NCBI GenBank assembly: GCA_017547245.1
Contig: JAFYQD010000007.1
Span: 1 to 64,000, forward strand
Source: Oscillospiraceae bacterium
Lineage (GTDB): Bacteria > Bacillota > Clostridia > Oscillospirales > Ruminococcaceae
Length of the DNA: 64,000 bases
Reading direction: 5' to 3'
Every line of letters starts with the position of its first letter. Within the stretch, counting starts at the first letter, position 1. The notes under the pieces are model-generated. The model did not search any database. It saw only the letters and a program-made list of their open reading frames with translations, and was not told where the DNA came from. Position numbers and translations under genes: made by a program. Of this stretch, positions 4,460 through 55,830 are shown piece by piece.

Positions 4460-5458
4460 ATGAAAAAGATCATTGCTGTACTGCTGGTTCTCGTCATGTG
4501 CCTGAGCATGGTAGCTTGTGGTGCCAAGGCTCCCGAAGCTGCCCCCGAAGCTAAGCCCCTGAAGGTTGCACTTTGCACCCCCGGCCCCATCAACGACGGC
4601 GCTTGGAGCTCCATCGCTTATGACGCTGTAATGGGCGCAAAGGAAAAGTACGACATCGAAGTAGTATACTCCGAAAATGTTCAGCTGACTGACATGGAAG
4701 CTGTATTCACCGACTATGCTGCTCAGGGTTACGAACTGCTGATCGGCCATAGCTACATGTTTGGTGATGCTGCTCTGGCTGTTGGCGAAAAGTATCCCAA
4801 TGTTAAGTTTGCTATCATCGACGGCACCGTAGGCAGCGAAAACGTTGCTTCTTACAGCCTGGGTATGCAGGACGCTCACTACATCCAGGGCGCTGTAGCT
4901 GCTATGCTGACCGAAACCAACAAGGTTGGTATGGTTGCTGGTCTGGAAGGCCCCGCCATCATCAAGTGCGTAGAAGCCTACAAGCTGGGTGCTGCCAGTG
5001 TTAACCCCGACATCGAAGTAATGACCGCTTTCACCGGCTCTTCTGACGACATCGACAAGGCTAAGGAAGCTGCCATGGCTATGCTGGACGACGGTGCTGA
5101 CATCGTTTCCGGTGGCGCTAACCAGGCTAATGCCGGTACCTTCAAGGCTTGTGATTCCAAGGGCGCTCTGTCCTTCGGCGAAACCACTCAGCGTGAACTT
5201 TCCGATTCTGTAATCCTCTGCAACACCAGCGACATCGGTGGTCTGCTGGAAACTGCTATCAAGAATGTTATTGACGGCACCTACGAAGGTGGCATTCATG
5301 ACATCGGTATGAAGGACGGCGTTGTTTACTTCTCCGATTTCGACGCTTTCTCTGAAGAATACCCCGAAGAAGTTGTTAAGGCTGTTTCTGATCTGATTGA
5401 ACAGATCCAGAAGGGTGAACTGGTTGTTCCCAAGATTGAAACCCTGACCCAGAACTAA
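4460..5458 (+). CDS. BMP-family (PnrA-like) nucleoside-binding lipoprotein
   Basis: This is the extracellular substrate-binding subunit of an ABC importer for purine nucleosides. The 332-residue product begins with a lipoprotein signal, MKKIIAVLLVLVMCLSMVACG, with Cys-20 the lipidation site. The mature part has the BMP/PnrA pattern: DGAWSSIAYDAVMGAKEKY near the N-terminus, then YIQGAVAAMLTETNKVGMVAGLEGP and GADIVSGGANQANAGTF. It precedes an ATPase and two permeases of the matching family, and a strong hairpin separates it from them. The operon also carries deoC and a ribokinase-type gene, which supports a nucleoside substrate. Confidence 0.9.
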   Translation: MKKIIAVLLVLVMCLSMVACGAKAPEAAPEAKPLKVALCTPGPINDGAWSSIAYDAVMGAKEKYDIEVVYSENVQLTDMEAVFTDYAAQGYELLIGHSYMFGDAALAVGEKYPNVKFAIIDGTVGSENVASYSLGMQDAHYIQGAVAAMLTETNKVGMVAGLEGPAIIKCVEAYKLGAASVNPDIEVMTAFTGSSDDIDKAKEAAMAMLDDGADIVSGGANQANAGTFKACDSKGALSFGETTQRELSDSVILCNTSDIGGLLETAIKNVIDGTYEGGIHDIGMKDGVVYFSDFDAFSEEYPEEVVKAVSDLIEQIQKGELVVPKIETLTQN

Positions 5459-5471
5459 GTTTGTTTTTTCC

Positions 5472-5504
5472 TTCCAGCTGCCCCGTTTTGCGGGGCAGCT
5501 GGAA
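5472..5504 (+). other. Strong hairpin without U-run between binding-protein and ATPase genes
   Basis: TTCCAGCTGCCCCG (5472-5485) pairs perfectly with CGGGGCAGCTGGAA (5491-5504) around a five-base loop. No T-run follows, so it is better explained as a 3' stabiliser of the binding-protein mRNA or a partial stop than as a full terminator. Confidence 0.75.
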
Positions 5505-5538
5505 AACTGTTATCCATACAAGAGAGGGAGGGAAACCA

Positions 5539-7068
5539 GTGGAATTACTGGAAATGCACGGGATCGTAAAAAGTTTTCCTGGTGTGCTGGCAAATGACCG
5601 GGTAGATCTCTTCGTACGCAAGGGAGAAATTCATGCCCTGCTGGGTGAGAACGGTGCTGGCAAAAGCACTCTGATGAACATATTGTACGGCCTTTATATC
5701 CCCGAAGAAGGGGAGGTATATTGGGAAGGAAAGCGAGTTGCTTTCACTACACCTGAAGAGGCCATTCGCAACGGTATCGGTATGGTACACCAGCACTTTA
5801 TGTTGGTCCAGAAAATGACCGTTTTGCAAAATATTATTCTGGGGTTAAAGCCCAAGGGACATCCTCTGCTGAATGTTGCATCGGTTGCTGCCGAAATTCG
5901 GGAACTTTCCGAAAAATATGGCCTGAGTGTCGATCCTGATGCGGTTGTCCAGACCCTCTCCGTAGGACAGCAGCAGCGTGTTGAAATTTTGAAGGCCCTT
6001 TATCGTGGGGCTAGACTGCTTATTTTGGACGAACCTACTGCGGTGTTGACTCCTCAGGAGACCACCGAATTCTTTAAAATGCTGCGTACCCTGCGTGATG
6101 AAGGCCAGAGTGTCATCCTGATTTCTCACCGCCTTTCTGAAATTATGCAGGTTAGCGACCGAGTAACCATCCTCCGTGATGGTCGCTCCATTGGAACGGT
6201 TGAAACCGTAAACACCACCCTGGAAGAACTTTCTCGACTGATGATTGGCCGTGAATTGCGTACCGGTGGTATGGACCTGCCCCAGGCAGATTACGAAGCT
6301 GCCCCCTTGATGGAGGTAAAAAATCTGACCTTGGCTGGCAAAGATAAGAAAAACCGCCTGGAAGATATCACACTGAACCTGTATCCCGGCGAAGTGCTGG
6401 GCATTGCCGGGGTTGACGGCAACGGGCAGCGTGAACTGGCTGAGGTGCTTGCTTGTATTGAAAAGAGCTCCGAAGGTCAGATTGTTTTCCGTGGTGATAA
6501 CATTGACAATTTGGGGATTCGTCAGAGAAACCGTTTGGGAATTGCTTATATTCCCGATGACCGACATCGTGACGGTCTGGTGACAAACGCTACCTTGCAG
6601 GATAACCTGATGCTGCGTTTGTACAATCAATCCCCTTATGCCCACCGTGGTCTGCTTCAGTTCCGTCAAATCGAGGAATCTTCCCAGCAGGCTGTGGAGC
6701 ATTATAATATCAAAACTCCTTCGATCTCGGCTGTGGTTCGTTTCCTTTCGGGCGGCAACCAGCAGAAGATCATTCTGGCCCGAGAACTGGAACAGAACCC
6801 AAGTCTGGTAATTGCCTGCCAGCCCACCCGTGGCCTGGATATCGGTGCTTCAGAATATGTTCGTGATCGACTGGTAGATTGTTGCCGTGAAGGTGGCAGC
6901 GTTCTGCTGATTTCCACCGACTTGGAAGAAATCCGCATGATGTCCCACCGCATCGCTGTTATGTACGGCGGTAAGGTAATGGGTATTGTGGAGAATAACG
7001 AGGATCTGAAGCTTGAAACCATCGGTTTGATGATGGGCGGCAAACGCCTGGAGGAGGTAGACGCATGA
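5539..7068 (+). CDS. ABC importer ATP-binding protein with two nucleotide-binding domains (nucleoside uptake)
   Basis: The 509-residue protein energises the nucleoside importer on the inner face of the membrane. Domain 1 has Walker A GENGAGKST (about residues 35-43), signature LSVGQQQRVEI and Walker B LLILDEPTAVLTPQE. Domain 2 has the degenerate GVDGNGQRELAE in place of Walker A, signature LSGGNQQKIILAREL and LVIACQPTRGLDIG. This asymmetric pattern is typical of sugar and BMP-type nucleoside importers. I chose GTG at 5539 after GAGGGAGGG; the longer upstream frame would run through the hairpin. The stop overlaps the first permease start (ATGA). Confidence 0.93.
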   Translation: MELLEMHGIVKSFPGVLANDRVDLFVRKGEIHALLGENGAGKSTLMNILYGLYIPEEGEVYWEGKRVAFTTPEEAIRNGIGMVHQHFMLVQKMTVLQNIILGLKPKGHPLLNVASVAAEIRELSEKYGLSVDPDAVVQTLSVGQQQRVEILKALYRGARLLILDEPTAVLTPQETTEFFKMLRTLRDEGQSVILISHRLSEIMQVSDRVTILRDGRSIGTVETVNTTLEELSRLMIGRELRTGGMDLPQADYEAAPLMEVKNLTLAGKDKKNRLEDITLNLYPGEVLGIAGVDGNGQRELAEVLACIEKSSEGQIVFRGDNIDNLGIRQRNRLGIAYIPDDRHRDGLVTNATLQDNLMLRLYNQSPYAHRGLLQFRQIEESSQQAVEHYNIKTPSISAVVRFLSGGNQQKIILARELEQNPSLVIACQPTRGLDIGASEYVRDRLVDCCREGGSVLLISTDLEEIRMMSHRIAVMYGGKVMGIVENNEDLKLETIGLMMGGKRLEEVDA

Positions 7069-8108
7069 AGAAAAAACTCCTGAAAATTCTTCCTCAAATT
7101 GTAATTGTACTGGTGGTTGCGGCTCTGCTGGTAATTATGGCAGGGGGCAATCCTCTGCGTGCCATCAAGATTTTCTTCCAGGGTACTCTTGGTAACCTCA
7201 ATGGTTTTATGGAAATCTTTGTTAAGGCTACCCCCCTTATTTTCCTTGGATTGGGTGTTTCGGTTTCTTTCCGCACCGGCTTTTTTAACATCGGTGCAGA
7301 AGGTCAGCTGTATATGGGCGCTGTAGCAGCCACTGCTACGGTATTTGCCCTGCCTGGCTTGCCTGGCGCTGTCCGCATCATTCTGGCCACTCTGGCTGCC
7401 TTTGTAACCGGTGGTTTGTGGGCTCTTATTCCCGCCATGCTGAAAAGAAAGATGAACATCTCTGAAACGGTTACTACCATTATGTTCAACTACATTGCCA
7501 TTATGATTGTTGGCATTTTGGTGCGTGGCCCTCTGCAGGATAAATCCGGTGCTCTGCCTCAAACTCCCTTTATCCCCGATGAGGCATCTCTGCCCCTTCT
7601 GGCCTATCCCACTCGTCTCCACCTTGGCGTTGTGCTGGCTATTGCTGCGGCCATTCTGCTGTATATCCTGCTTACCAAAACTACTGTCGGTTACGAGTTG
7701 AAAATTGTTGGCACCTCTCCCCGTGCAGCATTTTGTATGGGCCTGCCCATTACCCGAAGCCTGGTTATTTCGGCTCTGTTGGGTGGCGGCCTGGCCGGTA
7801 TGGCTGGCATGAACGAGGTGCTGGGCGTACAGCACCGTCTGCTGGAAGGTATCTCCAGTGGTAACGGCTATACCGCCGTGTTGGTAGCCCTGTTGGCTCG
7901 CAACCATCCTATCGGAGTTGTCATTGTTTCTGTCCTGCTGGCTGCTGTACAGGTTGGTGCCAACACTATGCAGCGTCAAATGGGTATTCCCGCCTCGATT
8001 GTAAACCTGCTGATTGGGTTCATTGTGGTTATGGTACTTTCTCAAGATATTGTGAAAATTTATCGTGAACATAAAAAGGCCAAGGAACTGGAGGTGAATC
8101 AGAAATGA
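7065..8108 (+). CDS. Nucleoside ABC transporter permease 1
   Basis: Inner-membrane channel subunit of the BMP-type importer, 347 residues with about nine to ten hydrophobic helices. It carries the family's FFNIGAEGQLYMGAVAA segment near residue 70 and GGGLAGMAGMNEVLG near residue 240. Start ATG 7065 overlaps the ATPase stop by four bases, and its own stop overlaps the next permease by four bases, so the three are translated as a unit. Confidence 0.9.
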   Translation: MKKKLLKILPQIVIVLVVAALLVIMAGGNPLRAIKIFFQGTLGNLNGFMEIFVKATPLIFLGLGVSVSFRTGFFNIGAEGQLYMGAVAATATVFALPGLPGAVRIILATLAAFVTGGLWALIPAMLKRKMNISETVTTIMFNYIAIMIVGILVRGPLQDKSGALPQTPFIPDEASLPLLAYPTRLHLGVVLAIAAAILLYILLTKTTVGYELKIVGTSPRAAFCMGLPITRSLVISALLGGGLAGMAGMNEVLGVQHRLLEGISSGNGYTAVLVALLARNHPIGVVIVSVLLAAVQVGANTMQRQMGIPASIVNLLIGFIVVMVLSQDIVKIYREHKKAKELEVNQK

Positions 8109-9046
8109 GTGAGATTTTGAATGTAGGATTTCTGACAGCCTTCCTTTCTGCTGCTGTGCGCATGTCTATGCCCATTACCTATGCAGCCTTGGGTGAAACT
8201 GTTTCGGAAAAGGCCGGTATCATCAATGTAGGTCTGGAAGCAGTTATGCTTAGTGGTGCCTTCTTCAGTTTCGCGGTATTGTATTATACCGGAAGCATGA
8301 TTCTCGGTTTTCTGGGGGGCATCCTGGCCGGTGTCATCCTCAGTTCGCTCCATGCTTTTCTGGCTGTTTATCTCCGACAGGATCATAACGTTTCGGGTGT
8401 TGCGCTGAACTTCTTTTCCCTGGGTATCACTAGCTTCCTGTTCGGTATTATGGTAAAAAAGGTTGGCAGTCTGCCCCAAACCGAAACTCTGCCCACTATC
8501 GAAATTCCTCTTCTTTCTGATATTCCTATCATTGGCGAAGCTTTTTTCAGCTGTGACATTATCACCTATCTGTGCTACTTTATGGTGTTTGCCATTTGGT
8601 TCTTCCTTAAGAAGAGCACCTGGGGCCTCTCGCTGATTTCGGTTGGTGAAAACCCTCGTGCTGCCGATACGGTTGGTATCCGTGTTAACAAGGTTAAGTA
8701 CCTCAGCGCCATTTTCAATGGCTTTATGAGTGGTCTTGGCGGTGCCTATCTGGCCATTGGTCAGTTGGGTGTTTTCTCCGAAAACGTAACCTCGGGCCGT
8801 GGCTATATTGCCTTGGCAGTTGTTGTATTTGGCCAGCGCAATCCTGTGTTTATTTTCCTGGCTGCCCTTTTCTTTGGTGCAGCACAGGCTCTTCAGTTCC
8901 GTCTGCAGGCACTGGGGGTAAATCTGCCCTCTCAGTTCTTCAACGGCTTGCCCTATCTGCTGACCGTTGTTGTGCTGCTGCTGAGCACCAAAAAGAGCAG
9001 CGAACCTGCTGCCTTGGGTCAGCCCTATATCCGTAGCATGCGCTAA
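8105..9046 (+). CDS. Nucleoside ABC transporter permease 2
   Basis: Second channel subunit of the BMP-type importer, 313 residues with many hydrophobic helices. The early LGETVSEKAGIINVGLEA segment and the later GVALNFFSLG and YIALAVVVFGQRNP segments match the smaller permease of this family. It starts within the stop of permease 1 and ends the operon, with a short terminator directly after it. Confidence 0.9.
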   Translation: MSEILNVGFLTAFLSAAVRMSMPITYAALGETVSEKAGIINVGLEAVMLSGAFFSFAVLYYTGSMILGFLGGILAGVILSSLHAFLAVYLRQDHNVSGVALNFFSLGITSFLFGIMVKKVGSLPQTETLPTIEIPLLSDIPIIGEAFFSCDIITYLCYFMVFAIWFFLKKSTWGLSLISVGENPRAADTVGIRVNKVKYLSAIFNGFMSGLGGAYLAIGQLGVFSENVTSGRGYIALAVVVFGQRNPVFIFLAALFFGAAQALQFRLQALGVNLPSQFFNGLPYLLTVVVLLLSTKKSSEPAALGQPYIRSMR

Positions 9047-9068
9047 AAAGTGGGAGTTCCCACCTTTT
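9045..9068 (+). terminator. Terminator after the nucleoside operon
   Basis: AAAAGTGGGA pairs with TCCCACCTTTT across a short loop, directly after the permease stop. A second longer hairpin follows at 9107-9137. Confidence 0.65.
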
Positions 9069-9137: not shown

Positions 9138-9243
9138 GTCTTCAACTGGATATGCGAGTGATTAATCATTTGGATTCCAGCCTTTGCAAATCAGCAATAA
9201 ATTGTCTTGCAAAAATTTTGATGTTTTTAAATTTTTGATTTTT

Positions 9244-9316
9244 GATGCAAATGTATATGCTTTCAATATGGGAGAGCGTTTCTACCAACTGCCATAAACA
9301 GTTGACTACATGTGCG
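9244..9316 (+). ncRNA. Purine riboswitch aptamer, guanine type
   Basis: All conserved parts of the purine aptamer are present. P1 is GCAAATG (9247-9253) with CATGTGC (9309-9315). P2 is GCTTTC (9259-9264) with GAGAGC (9272-9277), closing loop AATATGG. J2/3 is GTTTCTACC. P3 is AACTG (9287-9291) with CAGTT (9299-9303), closing loop CCATAAA. J3/1 is GAC, with C at 9306 at the position that pairs with the ligand (C74 in xpt), which predicts guanine or hypoxanthine rather than adenine. It lies 41 bases before the start of an FAD-dependent dehydrogenase gene. Confidence 0.92.
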
Positions 9317-9345
9317 TTTTAATGTGGTCAACTGGTTCTTTTTTT
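9299..9345 (+). terminator. Riboswitch expression platform: terminator that competes with the aptamer
   Basis: CAGTTGACTACAT (9299-9311) can pair with ATGTGGTCAACTG (9322-9334), 13 pairs with one wobble, followed by GTTCTTTTTTT. The 5' arm is the 3' half of aptamer P3, J3/1 and P1, so the ligand-bound aptamer and the terminator cannot coexist. This predicts that ligand turns expression on. GGAGG of the gene starts right after the U-run at 9346. Confidence 0.8.
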
Positions 9346-9356
9346 GGAGGGTAATT

Positions 9357-10721
9357 ATGGATTTTGATGTAATTATTATTGGTGCTGGTCCTGGAGGAAT
9401 ATACTCTGCTTTTGAACTGAGTAAAACTAAGCCTGACCTGAAAGTTGCTATTTTTGAAGGTGGACATGAGTTGAAAAAACGCCATTGTCCCATTGATGGT
9501 GAAAAAATCAAAAGCTGCATCGGGTGCAAAAGTTGCTCCATCATGAGCGGTTTCGGCGGTGCCGGCGCTTTTTCTGACGGAAAATATAACATTACCAATG
9601 ACTTTGGCGGAACACTTTACGAATATATTGGAAAAACTCAAGCTCTGAAATTGATGGAATATGTAGATGAAATCAATTTGGAGTATGGCGGTAAGGGTAC
9701 AAAACTATACTCAACCGCCGGTACAAAATTCAAAAAAATCTGTATGCAAAACGACTTGCATCTTTTGGATGCTTCGGTTCGACATCTCGGTACCGACATC
9801 AACTATATTGTTCTTGAAAACCTCTACGACTTCCTGAAGGATAAGGTAACCTTCTTCTTTGACACCCCTGTAGAGAGCATCGAAGTTGTGGACGGTGGAT
9901 ACAAGGTTATCTGCGGTGATGCCGAATATCATTGCAAAAAATGCGTTGTTTCGGTTGGCAGAAGCGGTAGCAAATGGATGGAAAAGGTCTGTAAGGATCT
10001 GTCCATTCCCACGAAAAGTAATCGAGTCGATATCGGTGTCCGTGTAGAACTTCCTGCCGAAGTTTTTTCCCATCTCACCGATGAACTCTATGAAAGCAAA
10101 ATCGTTTACCGCACTGCAGAATATGGAGATAGAGTTCGTACTTTCTGTATGAACCCCAAGGGTGCTGTTGTTAACGAAAATACTAATGGCATCATTACTG
10201 TAAATGGACACAGCTATGAGGATCCCGCAAAACAGACTCAAAACACCAATTTTGCTTTGTTGGTAGCCAAACACTTCTCGGAACCCTTTAAGGATTCCAA
10301 TGGCTATGGCGAATCCATTGCTCGTCTGAGCAATATGTTAGGTGGGGGAGTCATTGTTCAGCGTTTTGGTGACTTGATTCGCGGTCGACGTTCTAATCCG
10401 GTTCGCATTGAAGAAGCTTTCATCACCCCCACTCTGAATGCTACTCCTGGCGACTTGAGCCTTGTTCTTCCTAAACGAATTTTGGACGGCATTATCGAAA
10501 TGATTTATGCTTTGGATAAGGTTGCTCCCGGTACGGCCAACGATGATACCCTGTTGTATGGCGTTGAAGTTAAGTTCTATAATATGGAAGTATCGGTCAA
10601 TGAAAACCTGGAAAGCTGTTATCCTGGCCTGTATATCATCGGTGATGGTAGTGGTATTACCCATTCTCTTTCCCACGCATCTGCCAGCGGTATTCATGTT
10701 GCTCGTAATTTGTCCATCTAA
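9357..10721 (+). CDS. FAD-dependent dehydrogenase (COG2509-like) under a guanine-type riboswitch
   Basis: The 454-residue protein begins with a dinucleotide-binding motif, VIIIGAGPGGIYSAFEL, followed by an acidic strand end, IFEGG. It then has a Cys-rich stretch, CPIDGEKIKSCIGCKSC (residues about 43-60), and GFGGAGAFSDGKYN, a pattern of the uncharacterised FAD-dependent dehydrogenases. The C-terminal GLYIIGDGSGITHSLSHA is a second FAD contact typical of the fold. ATG 9357 follows GGAGG with six bases between. The substrate is unknown. Control by a purine riboswitch suggests a role in purine or related redox metabolism. The four closely spaced cysteines could bind an Fe-S cluster or act in thiol chemistry; this is inference. 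Confidence 0.8.
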   Translation: MDFDVIIIGAGPGGIYSAFELSKTKPDLKVAIFEGGHELKKRHCPIDGEKIKSCIGCKSCSIMSGFGGAGAFSDGKYNITNDFGGTLYEYIGKTQALKLMEYVDEINLEYGGKGTKLYSTAGTKFKKICMQNDLHLLDASVRHLGTDINYIVLENLYDFLKDKVTFFFDTPVESIEVVDGGYKVICGDAEYHCKKCVVSVGRSGSKWMEKVCKDLSIPTKSNRVDIGVRVELPAEVFSHLTDELYESKIVYRTAEYGDRVRTFCMNPKGAVVNENTNGIITVNGHSYEDPAKQTQNTNFALLVAKHFSEPFKDSNGYGESIARLSNMLGGGVIVQRFGDLIRGRRSNPVRIEEAFITPTLNATPGDLSLVLPKRILDGIIEMIYALDKVAPGTANDDTLLYGVEVKFYNMEVSVNENLESCYPGLYIIGDGSGITHSLSHASASGIHVARNLSI

Positions 10722-11202: not shown

Positions 11203-11212
11203 AATAAACAAA

Positions 11213-11302
11213 TACAGGGGAGCTTGTGTATGCAGGCTGAGAGGAAGTACCGAACTTCGACCCTAAAACCTGATGCGGATAATGCCGCCGTAGGAAGTCA
11301 TA
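11213..11302 (+). ncRNA. TPP riboswitch, first of two in tandem
   Basis: The THI element is recognised from GGGGAGC, GCTGAGAGGAAG, ACCTGATGCGGATAATGCC and GCCGTAGGAAG. It is followed by a terminator at 11317-11348. The sequence from GGGGAGC to CGACCC is identical to the second aptamer, so the pair arose by a recent duplication. The 3' end reads GTAGGAAG where the second copy reads GTAGGGAC, which changes the closing P1 pairing. Confidence 0.95.
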
Positions 11303-11316
11303 TACAAGGATTTTTT

Positions 11317-11348: not shown

Positions 11349-11362
11349 ATTTTACAATCAAA

Positions 11363-11452
11363 TATACGGGGAGCTTGTGTATGCAGGCTGAGAGGAAGTA
11401 CCGAACTTCGACCCATATAACCTGATTTGGATAATGCCAACGTAGGGACTTT
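11363..11452 (+). ncRNA. TPP riboswitch, second of two in tandem
   Basis: GGGGAGC, GCTGAGAGGAAG, ACCTGATTTGGATAATGCC and AACGTAGGGAC make a complete TPP aptamer. It has its own terminator at 11464-11498, so transcription must pass two independent TPP-sensing gates before thiS. Confidence 0.95.
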
Positions 11453-11463
11453 TGAGAGCATCA

Positions 11464-11498
11464 CGGGAAGTTTCCAAATTGGAGATTTCCCGTTTTTA
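11464..11498 (+). terminator. Terminator of the second TPP riboswitch
   Basis: The arms CGGGAA and TTCCCG (outer), and TCC and GGA (inner), form an interrupted stem followed by TTTTTATTTT, 17 bases before the thiS start. Confidence 0.8.
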
Positions 11499-24247: not shown

Positions 24248-25483
24248 TTATGCGTCGAGGTTAGTGATACCGTCGATAAACATATCAAAATAGGGAGCAG
24301 AACGGAATTCGGATTCATGGAAGTAGCCGTCGGAGATAACTTCGGTTTCGGGAACGAAGTCGCCCATGTCGTCTACGTCAGCCAGGTAGCTATCCAGGGT
24401 TGCACCGCCAACGGTGAAGGCAGCGGTATCAAATACCTTGAGGGAGCCGTCCAGCAGAGCAGCCTTGACTTCTTCAATCTTGGCAGCAGTGCCTTCAGCA
24501 GCAACAGCTTCGTTGAGTTCCTTCAGAGCAACGCCGCCATTTTCCAGAGTACCGGTCCAGTCGGCAGCAATGGGTTCACCGTTCATGGTTGCCTGCATGG
24601 AGTAGGTCATGTAAGGAGCCCAGTTGATGTAGGAAGCAACGATGTAGGTGTCGGGGCAGGCATCGGCAGCAGAGCCGTTGTAGAATACGAAGGGGATGCC
24701 GTTGTTCTGGCATTCGGTGGGGGCGCCCATGGAGTCAGCATGCAGGGAGATCAGCTTGCAGCCGTTGTTGATCAGCTTTACGGCGCCTTCCTGTTCCAGG
24801 GTGGGATCATACCAGGAGTTGGTGAAGGTTACGTCCATGGTGGCTTCGGGGCATACGTAGCGAACGCCCAGGAAGAAAGAGGTCATACCGGAAACTACTT
24901 CGGCGTAGGGGAAAGCACCGATGTAGCCAACCTTGGCTTCGTCAGCGGTGAATTCGCCGTTGGCGATCATTTCATTCAGCTTCAGACCAGCAGCAACACC
25001 ACCCAGGAAACGGCCTTCGTAGATGGAAGCGAAAGCGTTGTGGTAGTTGGGAACACCGGCGGTGTGAGCCTGAGTACCGGTAGCGTGGCAGAACTGAACT
25101 TCGGGGAATTCCTTAGCAGCCTGAATCATGTAGGGTTCATGGCCAAAGGAGTCGGCGAAGATGTAGGTGCAGCCTTCGTCAACCAGTTCGGCAGCGGCGT
25201 CATAGCAGGCTTCGGATTCGGGAATGTTTACCTTAACTACGGATTCAACACCCAGAGCAGCGCAAGCTTCCTTGGCAGCATTGATGAAGTTGAGGTCGTA
25301 GGTGGAGTTTTCGTCATGCAGGAAAATAAAGCCGGCCTTCAGGGTAGCGGTTTCGGCTTCAGCGGCAGGAGCGTCGGCTGCGGGAGCGTCGGCTGCGGGA
25401 GCCTTTTCAGCGGGCTTGCTGCCGCAAGCGGCAAAGGAAAATACGAGAACCAGAGCGAGGAGCAGTGCAATAATCTTGTTCAT
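24248..25483 (-). CDS. BMP-family nucleoside-binding lipoprotein (second system)
   Basis: The extracellular binding subunit, 411 residues. It has a lipoprotein signal with the lipobox FAAC (Cys-20), then an Ala/Pro-rich linker made of repeated PAADA units before the binding domain. The domain shows KAGFIFLHDENSTYD, ADSFGHEPYMIQAAKEFPEVQF and GRFLGGVAAGLKLNEM. It is about 80 residues longer than the first system's protein. It is the first gene of the operon, with a 280-base leader that carries a purine riboswitch. Confidence 0.9.
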   Translation of the reverse strand: MNKIIALLLALVLVFSFAACGSKPAEKAPAADAPAADAPAAEAETATLKAGFIFLHDENSTYDLNFINAAKEACAALGVESVVKVNIPESEACYDAAAELVDEGCTYIFADSFGHEPYMIQAAKEFPEVQFCHATGTQAHTAGVPNYHNAFASIYEGRFLGGVAAGLKLNEMIANGEFTADEAKVGYIGAFPYAEVVSGMTSFFLGVRYVCPEATMDVTFTNSWYDPTLEQEGAVKLINNGCKLISLHADSMGAPTECQNNGIPFVFYNGSAADACPDTYIVASYINWAPYMTYSMQATMNGEPIAADWTGTLENGGVALKELNEAVAAEGTAAKIEEVKAALLDGSLKVFDTAAFTVGGATLDSYLADVDDMGDFVPETEVISDGYFHESEFRSAPYFDMFIDGITNLDA

Positions 25484-25652: not shown

Positions 25653-25686
25653 CGCAGGCTTGACTATCCCTATACAAAGGGAATAT

Positions 25687-25761
25687 CGCTATCGATAGAC
25701 CGGTCATTTACGGCGTCCGGGTAGAGACTTCAAATCCATATCATTTGCTATATATCGAGCG
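25687..25761 (-). ncRNA. Purine riboswitch aptamer with variant junction
   Basis: Read on the minus strand: P1 TCGATA with TATCGA; ATATGGA in L2 (plus-strand 25735-25741); J2/3 GTCTCTACC (25720-25728); loop CCGTAAA in L3 (25707-25713). P3 has an internal A-A mismatch. J3/1 reads GTC where known guanine aptamers have GAC; the ligand-pairing C (25698) is kept and the base before it is U in place of A. The aptamer precedes a nucleoside importer operon. Ligand class is guanine-like by the C, but the change next to it makes guanosine, 2'-deoxyguanosine or another purine worth considering. Confidence 0.82.
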
Positions 25762-25968
25762 GTAATTTAATATTCAAGTTTCACTATTTTTCTGTACATA
25801 TTAAGATTATCAGCCAAACAATCAAATGTCAATTGAGATTTTGGTTGATTAAAATCACTTATTTTGACACGATTCGGGCAAGTTGCACATAGTGCTGGTT
25901 TTAATTGGAATTTTACCCCCCAACATTTCGTCCGTTTTCTGTTTTTTTATTTAAGTGATATATGAAAG

Positions 25969-26083: not shown

Positions 26084-26665
26084 ATGAATTTTTTGGAAGA
26101 ACGCATTCTGAAAGACGGTATTGTAAAACCCAACAATGTACTGAAGGTTGACAGTTTCCTCAATCATCAGATGGATATTTCCCTGATGGAAGAAATCGGT
26201 CGTGAGTTTAAGCGCCGCTTTGCCGACAAAGACATCACCAAAGTTCTGACCATTGAAGCTTCCGGCATCGGCATTGCCTGTTTTGTGGCAAAGGAATTCG
26301 GTGTTCCCATGGTGTTTGCCAAAAAATCCAAGTCGATTAACATCGACAGCGAAGTTTATATGGCTGAGGTGGAATCCTTTACCCACAAGAATAAAAACAA
26401 CGTTATTGTTTCGAAGAAATTTTTGAACCAGGGCGATCGTGTTTTGGTTATCGATGACTTTTTGGCCAACGGCTGTGCCCTTCAGGGTCTTATCGCCATT
26501 GCAAAGTCTGCCGGAGCAACCGTAGAGGGCATCGGCATTGTTATTGAAAAGGGCTTCCAGATTGGCGGTCAGGTTATCCGAAACCTGGGTATTCAGCTTG
26601 AATCGCTGGCCATCATTGATGCTATGGATGCCGAAAACGGCTCCATCACCTTCCGTGAACAATAA
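26084..26665 (+). CDS. xpt: Xanthine phosphoribosyltransferase
   Basis: It converts xanthine (and guanine weakly) with PRPP to the nucleotide for purine salvage. The 193-residue protein has the type I PRTase PRPP loop VLVIDDFLANGCA at about residues 123-135, and the Xpt start FLEERILKDGIVKPNNVLKVDSFLNHQMD. ATG 26084 follows GGAGG; the frame extends to 26030 without need. It stands alone between a promoter and a terminator. In Bacillus the gene is under a guanine riboswitch, which is missing here. Confidence 0.95.
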   Translation: MNFLEERILKDGIVKPNNVLKVDSFLNHQMDISLMEEIGREFKRRFADKDITKVLTIEASGIGIACFVAKEFGVPMVFAKKSKSINIDSEVYMAEVESFTHKNKNNVIVSKKFLNQGDRVLVIDDFLANGCALQGLIAIAKSAGATVEGIGIVIEKGFQIGGQVIRNLGIQLESLAIIDAMDAENGSITFREQ

Positions 26666-55545: not shown

Positions 55546-55830
55546 AGTTAAAAAGCTGTGAAGATATTAAGTCGAAGGGTAACTTACTGCAGAGAACTGT
55601 CGGTTGGTGCAAGACAGGTAAAAGACCTTTTGATTGTCTCGTATCTGAGCTGGATTTCCGAAATCGATTCAGTAAGAAATCCCGGGTGAGCCCGTTACAG
55701 GTCAAGAGGCTTGATAGAGCTTCATGAGTGGCCATAGGAGATACTATGGCAATACGGGTGGTACCGTGGTTAATGATATGTTAATCATCCCGCAGAAAAT
55801 CGTATGGTTTTCTGCGGTTTTTGTTTTTTC
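55546..55830 (+). ncRNA. T-box leader, probable isoleucine specifier
   Basis: AGAGA (about 55600) followed by the GGTTGGTGCAA bulge stem marks Stem I. CTTACTG and CAGTAAG form its base, and the specifier loop reads CCGAA-ATC-GAT, giving ATC (Ile) at the usual place. The T-box proper is CGGGTGGTACCGTGG (from about 55755), whose TGGT would pair with an ACCA end, as expected for tRNA-Ile. The terminator CCGCAGAAAA/TTTTCTGCGG with TTTTTG follows at about 55794-55828. Uncharged tRNA should permit readthrough into the downstream operon. The specifier reading is by eye. Confidence 0.88.

Follow-up and report, generated by a model that had tools for sequence, protein, structure and literature searches.

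The locus described here raises the question of why a guanine-type purine riboswitch stands directly before the gene of an uncharacterised flavoenzyme, and whether a bound purine turns that gene on or off. The window, that is the whole stretch of 64,000 nucleotides that was analysed, belongs to an assembly of 1.23 Mb that is 56% complete. Computation places in it an aptamer with C at the ligand-pairing position and a terminator exclusive with that aptamer, an arrangement that recurs and covaries, within a purine-linked gene context. It is probable that the element is a transcriptional ON riboswitch and that the flavoenzyme serves purine handling next to xanthine phosphoribosyltransferase (Xpt). 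Along the + strand the order is importer operon, hairpin, riboswitch, FAD gene, two TPP aptamers and a thi operon, the thi genes being assigned by eye, and the main features are the following.

4460..9046, + strand: Bmp-family ABC importer operon (lipoprotein, ATPase, two permeases), from Pfam Bmp, ABC_tran and BPD_transp_2
9050..9063, + strand: terminator-like hairpin after the importer operon, from a terminator scan
9248..9314, + strand: guanine-type purine riboswitch aptamer, from the RF00167 match, helix coordinates and covariation over 12 FAD-gene leaders
9299..9345, + strand: intrinsic terminator, from arm covariation, the leader-swap control and folding
9346..9351, + strand: ribosome-binding site GGAGGG of the FAD gene, from the sequence
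9357..10721, + strand: FAD-dependent oxidoreductase gene, 454 aa, from Pfam, the PDB relative 3nlc and conserved cysteines
25676..25777, - strand: second purine riboswitch, from the RF00167 search, upstream of a second Bmp-like operon (24248-25483, - strand)
26084..26665, + strand: xanthine phosphoribosyltransferase gene (xpt), from NCBIfam XPRTase above cut-off, about 15 kb from the FAD gene

The closest NCBIfam models to the lipoprotein, ATPase and permeases of the first importer are those of a putative B6 transporter, all under the cut-off, and nucleosides are the presumed substrate of this Bmp-family importer. The hairpin at 9050-9063 (one found, versus 0.3 expected in shuffles) follows the importer operon, so the riboswitch leader is probably its own transcription unit. 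Before the thi operon, whose genes were named by eye, two TPP aptamers stand in tandem (11206-11313 and 11357-11465, +), and a T-box leader (55549-55795, +, 113.8 bits) lies upstream of a 474-aa open reading frame. A general link of the FAD gene to thiamine was considered and dropped, thi genes having been found in 1 of 142 loci; at locus L198 the genes downstream of the FAD gene look thiW-, thiM- and thiE-like (by eye).

The FAD protein matches Pfam FAD-depend_C (PF21688) with 48.2 bits (cut-off 27) and Pyr_redox_2 with 41.9 bits (cut-off 26.1), which agrees with the preliminary description of the target as an uncharacterised FAD enzyme. Its clear PDB relative, by sequence and by fold, is VP0956 (3nlc), the weaker matches being general FAD oxidases. 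VP0956 shares the FAD-depend_C domain, but in the sequence alignment cysteines are missing from its residues opposite the C-x2-C-x2-C of the window protein. VP0956 and the other FAD-depend_C flavoproteins presumably correspond to COG2509. An alignment of 50 close-group proteins shows no variation at C44, C54, C57 or C60, and R-x-C-P followed by C-x2-C-x2/3-C is present in 107 of 107 gathered proteins, the distant group included, where only the C-x2-C part is an independent count because the gathering required a C-P/C-A pattern. At a guess, the four cysteines form an iron-sulfur site. The structure prediction is weak (mean pLDDT 60.5, with confidence below 50 at residues 44-84), and the model therefore supports the FAD fold only. 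In a class-level sample of 341 genomes, 165 have a member of the enzyme family, matched at E up to 1e-40.

How often a riboswitch precedes such genes was determined at the loci of 80 named close homologues, the top 80 among 573 relatives (proteins 79-85% identical); by their titles these are metagenome-assembled genomes, in many cases of animal-gut origin. A covariance model made from 12 FAD-gene aptamers, which replaced regular-expression scans, detects a purine riboswitch at 12 of these 80 loci, every time just 5' of the FAD gene, although 10 of these 12 belonged to its training set; it finds none at the other 68, and one in 3 of 29 further loci (L005, L011 and L012). The Rfam model gave 82 riboswitch matches over 297 genomes of the window's family, one below cut-off, and 14 of them lie directly before a FAD gene: the window's own, three with genes 81-84% identical and ten with genes 39-42% identical. 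Two of the riboswitch-FAD loci (L150 and L151, contig C62 of genome G258) have identical aptamers, face apart on one contig and are counted twice; the pair may be an assembly duplication. L205, from another family, has a riboswitch, an ON hairpin and a FAD gene, and at L193-L197 the FAD gene adjoins a purine riboswitch-xpt-Bmp unit; class-level adjacency is drawn from 20 hand-picked loci, four of them chosen since a riboswitch was close by.

The preliminary description held that the regulated gene is not a known purine gene, which is correct by annotation, but neighbouring genes link it to purine salvage: xpt and, named by eye, an NCS2 permease (L072) and purF (L200). By tblastn, xpt lies near the FAD gene in 10 of the 80 named loci (8 by ORF clustering) and in 16 of the 142 loci searched, where 10 of 80 is the fair figure because five of the 16, L193-L197, were fetched by choice. 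The two genes are paired on the same strand in L033, L044, L048 and L083, an NCS2-like permease, xpt and the FAD gene stand in a row in L072, and a purF-like gene comes after the FAD gene in L200. In the distant group (39-42% identity), the FAD gene is followed by xpt after 26-37 nt in G132 and G219, and no purine gene was recognised by eye alongside the riboswitch-bearing FAD genes. Across the family, xpt is present in 91 of 125 FAD-positive and 31 of 172 FAD-negative genomes, an odds ratio of 12 that is uncorrected for phylogeny and completeness. Judging from this gene context, the flavoenzyme most likely serves purine handling beside Xpt, and it is attractive to suppose that it oxidises or reduces a purine base into an Xpt substrate.

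The competing account that survives best, and that is distinctly possible, gives the flavoenzyme no purine substrate: guanine would be a signal of nutrient or nucleotide excess and the gene would meet a general redox need. It accommodates the 68 of 80 named loci without a riboswitch and the 70 of 80 without a nearby xpt, the distant group in which no purine neighbour of the riboswitch-bearing genes was recognised by eye, and a structure model that yields a general FAD fold only. It is harder to reconcile with the FAD-xpt pairs and the permease-xpt-FAD row, with the xpt neighbourhood in other families, and with the co-occurrence of the two genes.

The guanine-class aptamer with C at the ligand position, as first described, is confirmed by an RF00167 match at 9231-9328 (+) that scores 64.9 bits, where the gathering score is 37 (E 4.6e-9). 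P1 pairs 9248-9255 with 9307-9314 (seven of eight pairs standard, one A-G mismatch), P2 pairs 9259-9264 with 9272-9277, and P3 pairs 9286-9291 with 9299-9304, where every pair is standard. J2/3 reads UUUCUACC, has no insertion and keeps U51, and the ligand-pairing position in J3/1 is a C, C74 in xpt numbering. The folding z-score of 9230-9380 is -2.49. Covariation over 12 FAD-gene leaders covers the structure of 20 pairs, 14 of which have two-sided changes, and its score was equalled in 0 of 500 shuffles, which ignore relatedness. C74 is kept in 26 of 26 FAD leaders (by eye). The U74 of adenine riboswitches is replaced by C in the window aptamer, which also lacks the one- or two-base J2/3 insertion of Guanine-II and xanthine-II and the U51G of xanthine-II; by its sequence the core is of the Guanine-I type (C74, U51, no J2/3 insertion). 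Two other FAD-gene aptamers depart from this: that of L144 has one extra base in J2/3 (by eye; compare the guanine-II description), and that of L084 (4868-4940) has several A-to-G changes in J1/2, J2/3 and J3/1, with C74 and a matching ON terminator kept, and possibly an altered specificity.

It is rather unlikely that the proposed ON switch responds in nature to a purine other than guanine (xanthine, hypoxanthine, guanosine or 2'-deoxyguanosine). Such a ligand would be in line with Guanine-I pockets being only about 10-fold selective against hypoxanthine and xanthine (PMC9295807), with the varying purine preference of C. difficile purine riboswitches (PMC11477304) and with Xpt as the recurrent neighbour, while the window core differs from xanthine-II in lacking a J2/3 insertion and in retaining U51 and C74.

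The hairpin of the terminator is formed by 9299-9311 with 9322-9334 (13 pairs, of which 12 are Watson-Crick and one is G-U; -17.5 kcal/mol), and its 3' arm is followed by GUUCUUUUUUU, with a U-rich tail at 9335-9345. The 5' arm of 13 nt consists of the 3' strand of P3 (6), J3/1 (2) and the 3' strand of P1 (5), which are the 13 shared bases reported earlier. Because the arm is drawn from these elements, aptamer and terminator are mutually exclusive, and the design is therefore predicted to be an ON switch. No second terminator was seen by eye between the aptamer and the ATG at 9357, as had been claimed, nor was a separate terminator with an antiterminator seen in the window leader. With P2 kept and no ligand, the terminator fold reaches -25.8 versus -14.4 kcal/mol for the aptamer fold; since the ligand-free fold is already the terminator, switching must be kinetic, and only about 20 nt lie between the aptamer and completion of the terminator, a point against the ON reading. 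A simple terminator scan (loops of 3-8) does not list this hairpin, the loop of which has 10 nt.

The adenine riboswitch of B. subtilis pbuE works in this manner: its aptamer, once the ligand is bound, precludes a terminator made in part from aptamer strands, and transcription is rescued while the RNA is being made. It has U74, is specific for adenine and controls an efflux pump gene. The window leader shares with this transcriptional ON switch the borrowing of aptamer strands, its terminator 5' arm overlapping the aptamer by 13 nt, whereas it has C74 and a flavoenzyme where pbuE has U74 and an efflux pump.

From these features we infer the ligand, the direction of switching and the place of the enzyme in purine metabolism as follows. 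With no ligand, the P3-3'/J3-1/P1-3' segment would pair with 9322-9334 and transcription would end at the U-run, short of the FAD gene. If guanine (or hypoxanthine or, at a higher level, xanthine) occupied the three-way junction ahead of synthesis of the 3' arm, P1 and P3 would be locked, the terminator blocked and the FAD gene transcribed. Termination would be the default, rescue would take place during RNA synthesis, and purine excess would lead to more flavoenzyme.

The sign of control was compared over 94 leaders (82 Rfam matches, both window riboswitches among them, and 12 named loci), 26 belonging to FAD genes and 68 to other genes; targets were named by script motif and partly by eye, six being verified with NCBIfam. 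By a rule that asks for aptamer bases as partners of the 3' arm preceding the best U-run, the terminator arm lies inside the aptamer in 21 of 26 FAD leaders versus 22 of 68 others (Fisher p 5e-5, ignoring relatedness). Two of the 21 (L152 and L153) have only 4-5 aptamer bases in the arm, and several of the 22 look doubtful because the pairing is with the 5' side of P1. Inspection of the folds added L068, L079 and L144 as aptamer-borne terminators, the first two with poor U-tracts, and revealed no terminator in the folds of two FAD leaders (L086 and L087). A first, cruder classifier, which considered hairpins no longer than 64 nt, scored 14 of the 26 FAD leaders and 11 of the 68 other leaders as ON; it missed long nested hairpins and the window's own, which the second classifier detects, and was superseded by the latter.

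In the stricter leader-swap control, each aptamer was paired with the arm of its own leader and with arms from leaders of other genes. For the window aptamer and its own terminator arm the pairing energy is -20.6 kcal/mol, compared with a mean of -9.8 for other genes' leaders, and none of those 68 pairs as well. The control is passed by 16 FAD leaders out of 26, ten failing, versus 8 of 68 others (p 3e-6, Fisher ignoring relatedness). By target, the passes among the others are Bmp 0/7, xpt 0/5, pbuX-like 0/5, pbuG-like 4/27, guanine deaminase-like 1/2, MATE 1/1, purC/E/F 0/7, xdh 0/3, nucleoside phosphorylase-like 0/1 and unnamed 2/10. Within the window's bacterial family, most leaders of presumed purine uptake and salvage genes lack the ON build. 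The second window riboswitch has a separate downstream hairpin, no terminator arm within the aptamer and an antiterminator pairing of -9.5 kcal/mol that 17% of swapped arms equal, and it is presumed to work as an OFF switch. An ON design in xdh leaders was considered as well and rejected, L157 (xdh by eye) and L181 (XdhA-like) having failed the swap control; L113 (XdhB-like) has complementarity of the OFF kind. Aptamer-borne terminator arms were also observed in L134 and L167 (guanine deaminase-like), L184 (MATE), and L164 and L174 (NCS2-like permeases), of which L167 narrowly fails the swap control and the other four pass.

The terminator arms covary in 12 chosen leaders of the window's type, aligned in an ungapped frame. 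Position 1 occurs as C-G, U-A, U-G, G-C and G-U, position 2 as A-U and G-C, and position 4 as U-A, C-G and U-G. Residue 73 in J3/1, which is outside all aptamer helices, is A-U in seven leaders, U-A in L079 and G-C in L084, and is unpaired in 3 of the 12. The frame fits poorly in four of them (L059, L068, L082 and L100), the arm being shorter and shifted in L059 and the pairing bulged in L068. The distant group has a nested design, in which the terminator 5' arm is the J2/3-P3-L3 segment and the remaining 3' side of the aptamer folds within a long hairpin; in L145, for example, ACCAGC..CCGGAA of the aptamer pairs with UUCCGG..GCUGGU, followed by UUUUU. Ligand binding would block this terminator too. 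Two unlike platforms with the same sign in front of one gene family suggest that the sign of control matters.

It is very improbable that the ligand instead lowers expression, through an unseen antiterminator or a translational platform as in xpt-type leaders. Known guanine riboswitches commonly reduce expression (PMC9295807) and four of four C. difficile purine riboswitches are OFF (PMC11477304), yet the terminator before the ATG has the aptamer as its arm, this arrangement recurs and covaries, and the ribosome-binding site at 9346-9351 lies outside the aptamer fold and the terminator fold alike. A chance or decayed element with a coincidental hairpin overlap can practically be dismissed, since 0 of 68 other-gene leaders pair as well and both aptamer and terminator covary. 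The ON arrangement of the preliminary description, predicted there from exclusive folds, is strengthened by recurrence, covariation and the swap control.

Its further claim, that an ON design is unusual for a guanine aptamer, is overstated. Guanine riboswitches are typically OFF (PMC5912903), but ON control by their variants is not new as such, having been predicted in print for guanine-II, xanthine-II and a guanosine variant, with some catabolic targets under xanthine-II (PMC9295807). Guanine-I riboswitches of the xpt-pbuX and yxjA type have the same core as the window aptamer (U22, U51, C74, no J2/3 insertion; PMC9295807), but they are OFF and the window leader has the opposite expression platform. 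Guanine-II and xanthine-II resemble the window leader in predicted ON control and purine ligands, but they have J2/3 insertions (xanthine-II also U51G) where the window core is canonical (PMC9295807). Xanthine-I, an unrelated class, is an OFF switch on purine oxidation genes (PMC7373994), guanine aptamers have been placed in pbuE chimeras (PMC7707468), and the excerpt of PMC10907184 holds no information on ON control by guanine-type aptamers. Searches of open-licence PubMed Central papers turned up no report in which this FAD gene family is preceded by a natural ON terminator joined to a canonical guanine-type core.

The fullest form of the proposal, which is possible and is put forward tentatively, makes the FAD-depend_C protein with its four cysteines a hitherto unrecognised oxidoreductase of purines that works beside Xpt. 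Clostridia-like bacteria would then have arrived at two or more kinds of guanine-sensing ON terminator that induce it once purine bases build up. The FAD leaders supply natural guanine-type aptamers whose ON platforms come in two terminator designs, a useful set for examining how the platform, and not the pocket, sets the sign of control. An uncharacterised and widespread flavoenzyme family becomes tied to purine metabolism through regulation and gene context, which gives a direct hypothesis for its substrate, and the recurrence of the riboswitch-FAD wiring in other bacteria may point to a part played by the enzyme in purine metabolism that has been overlooked.
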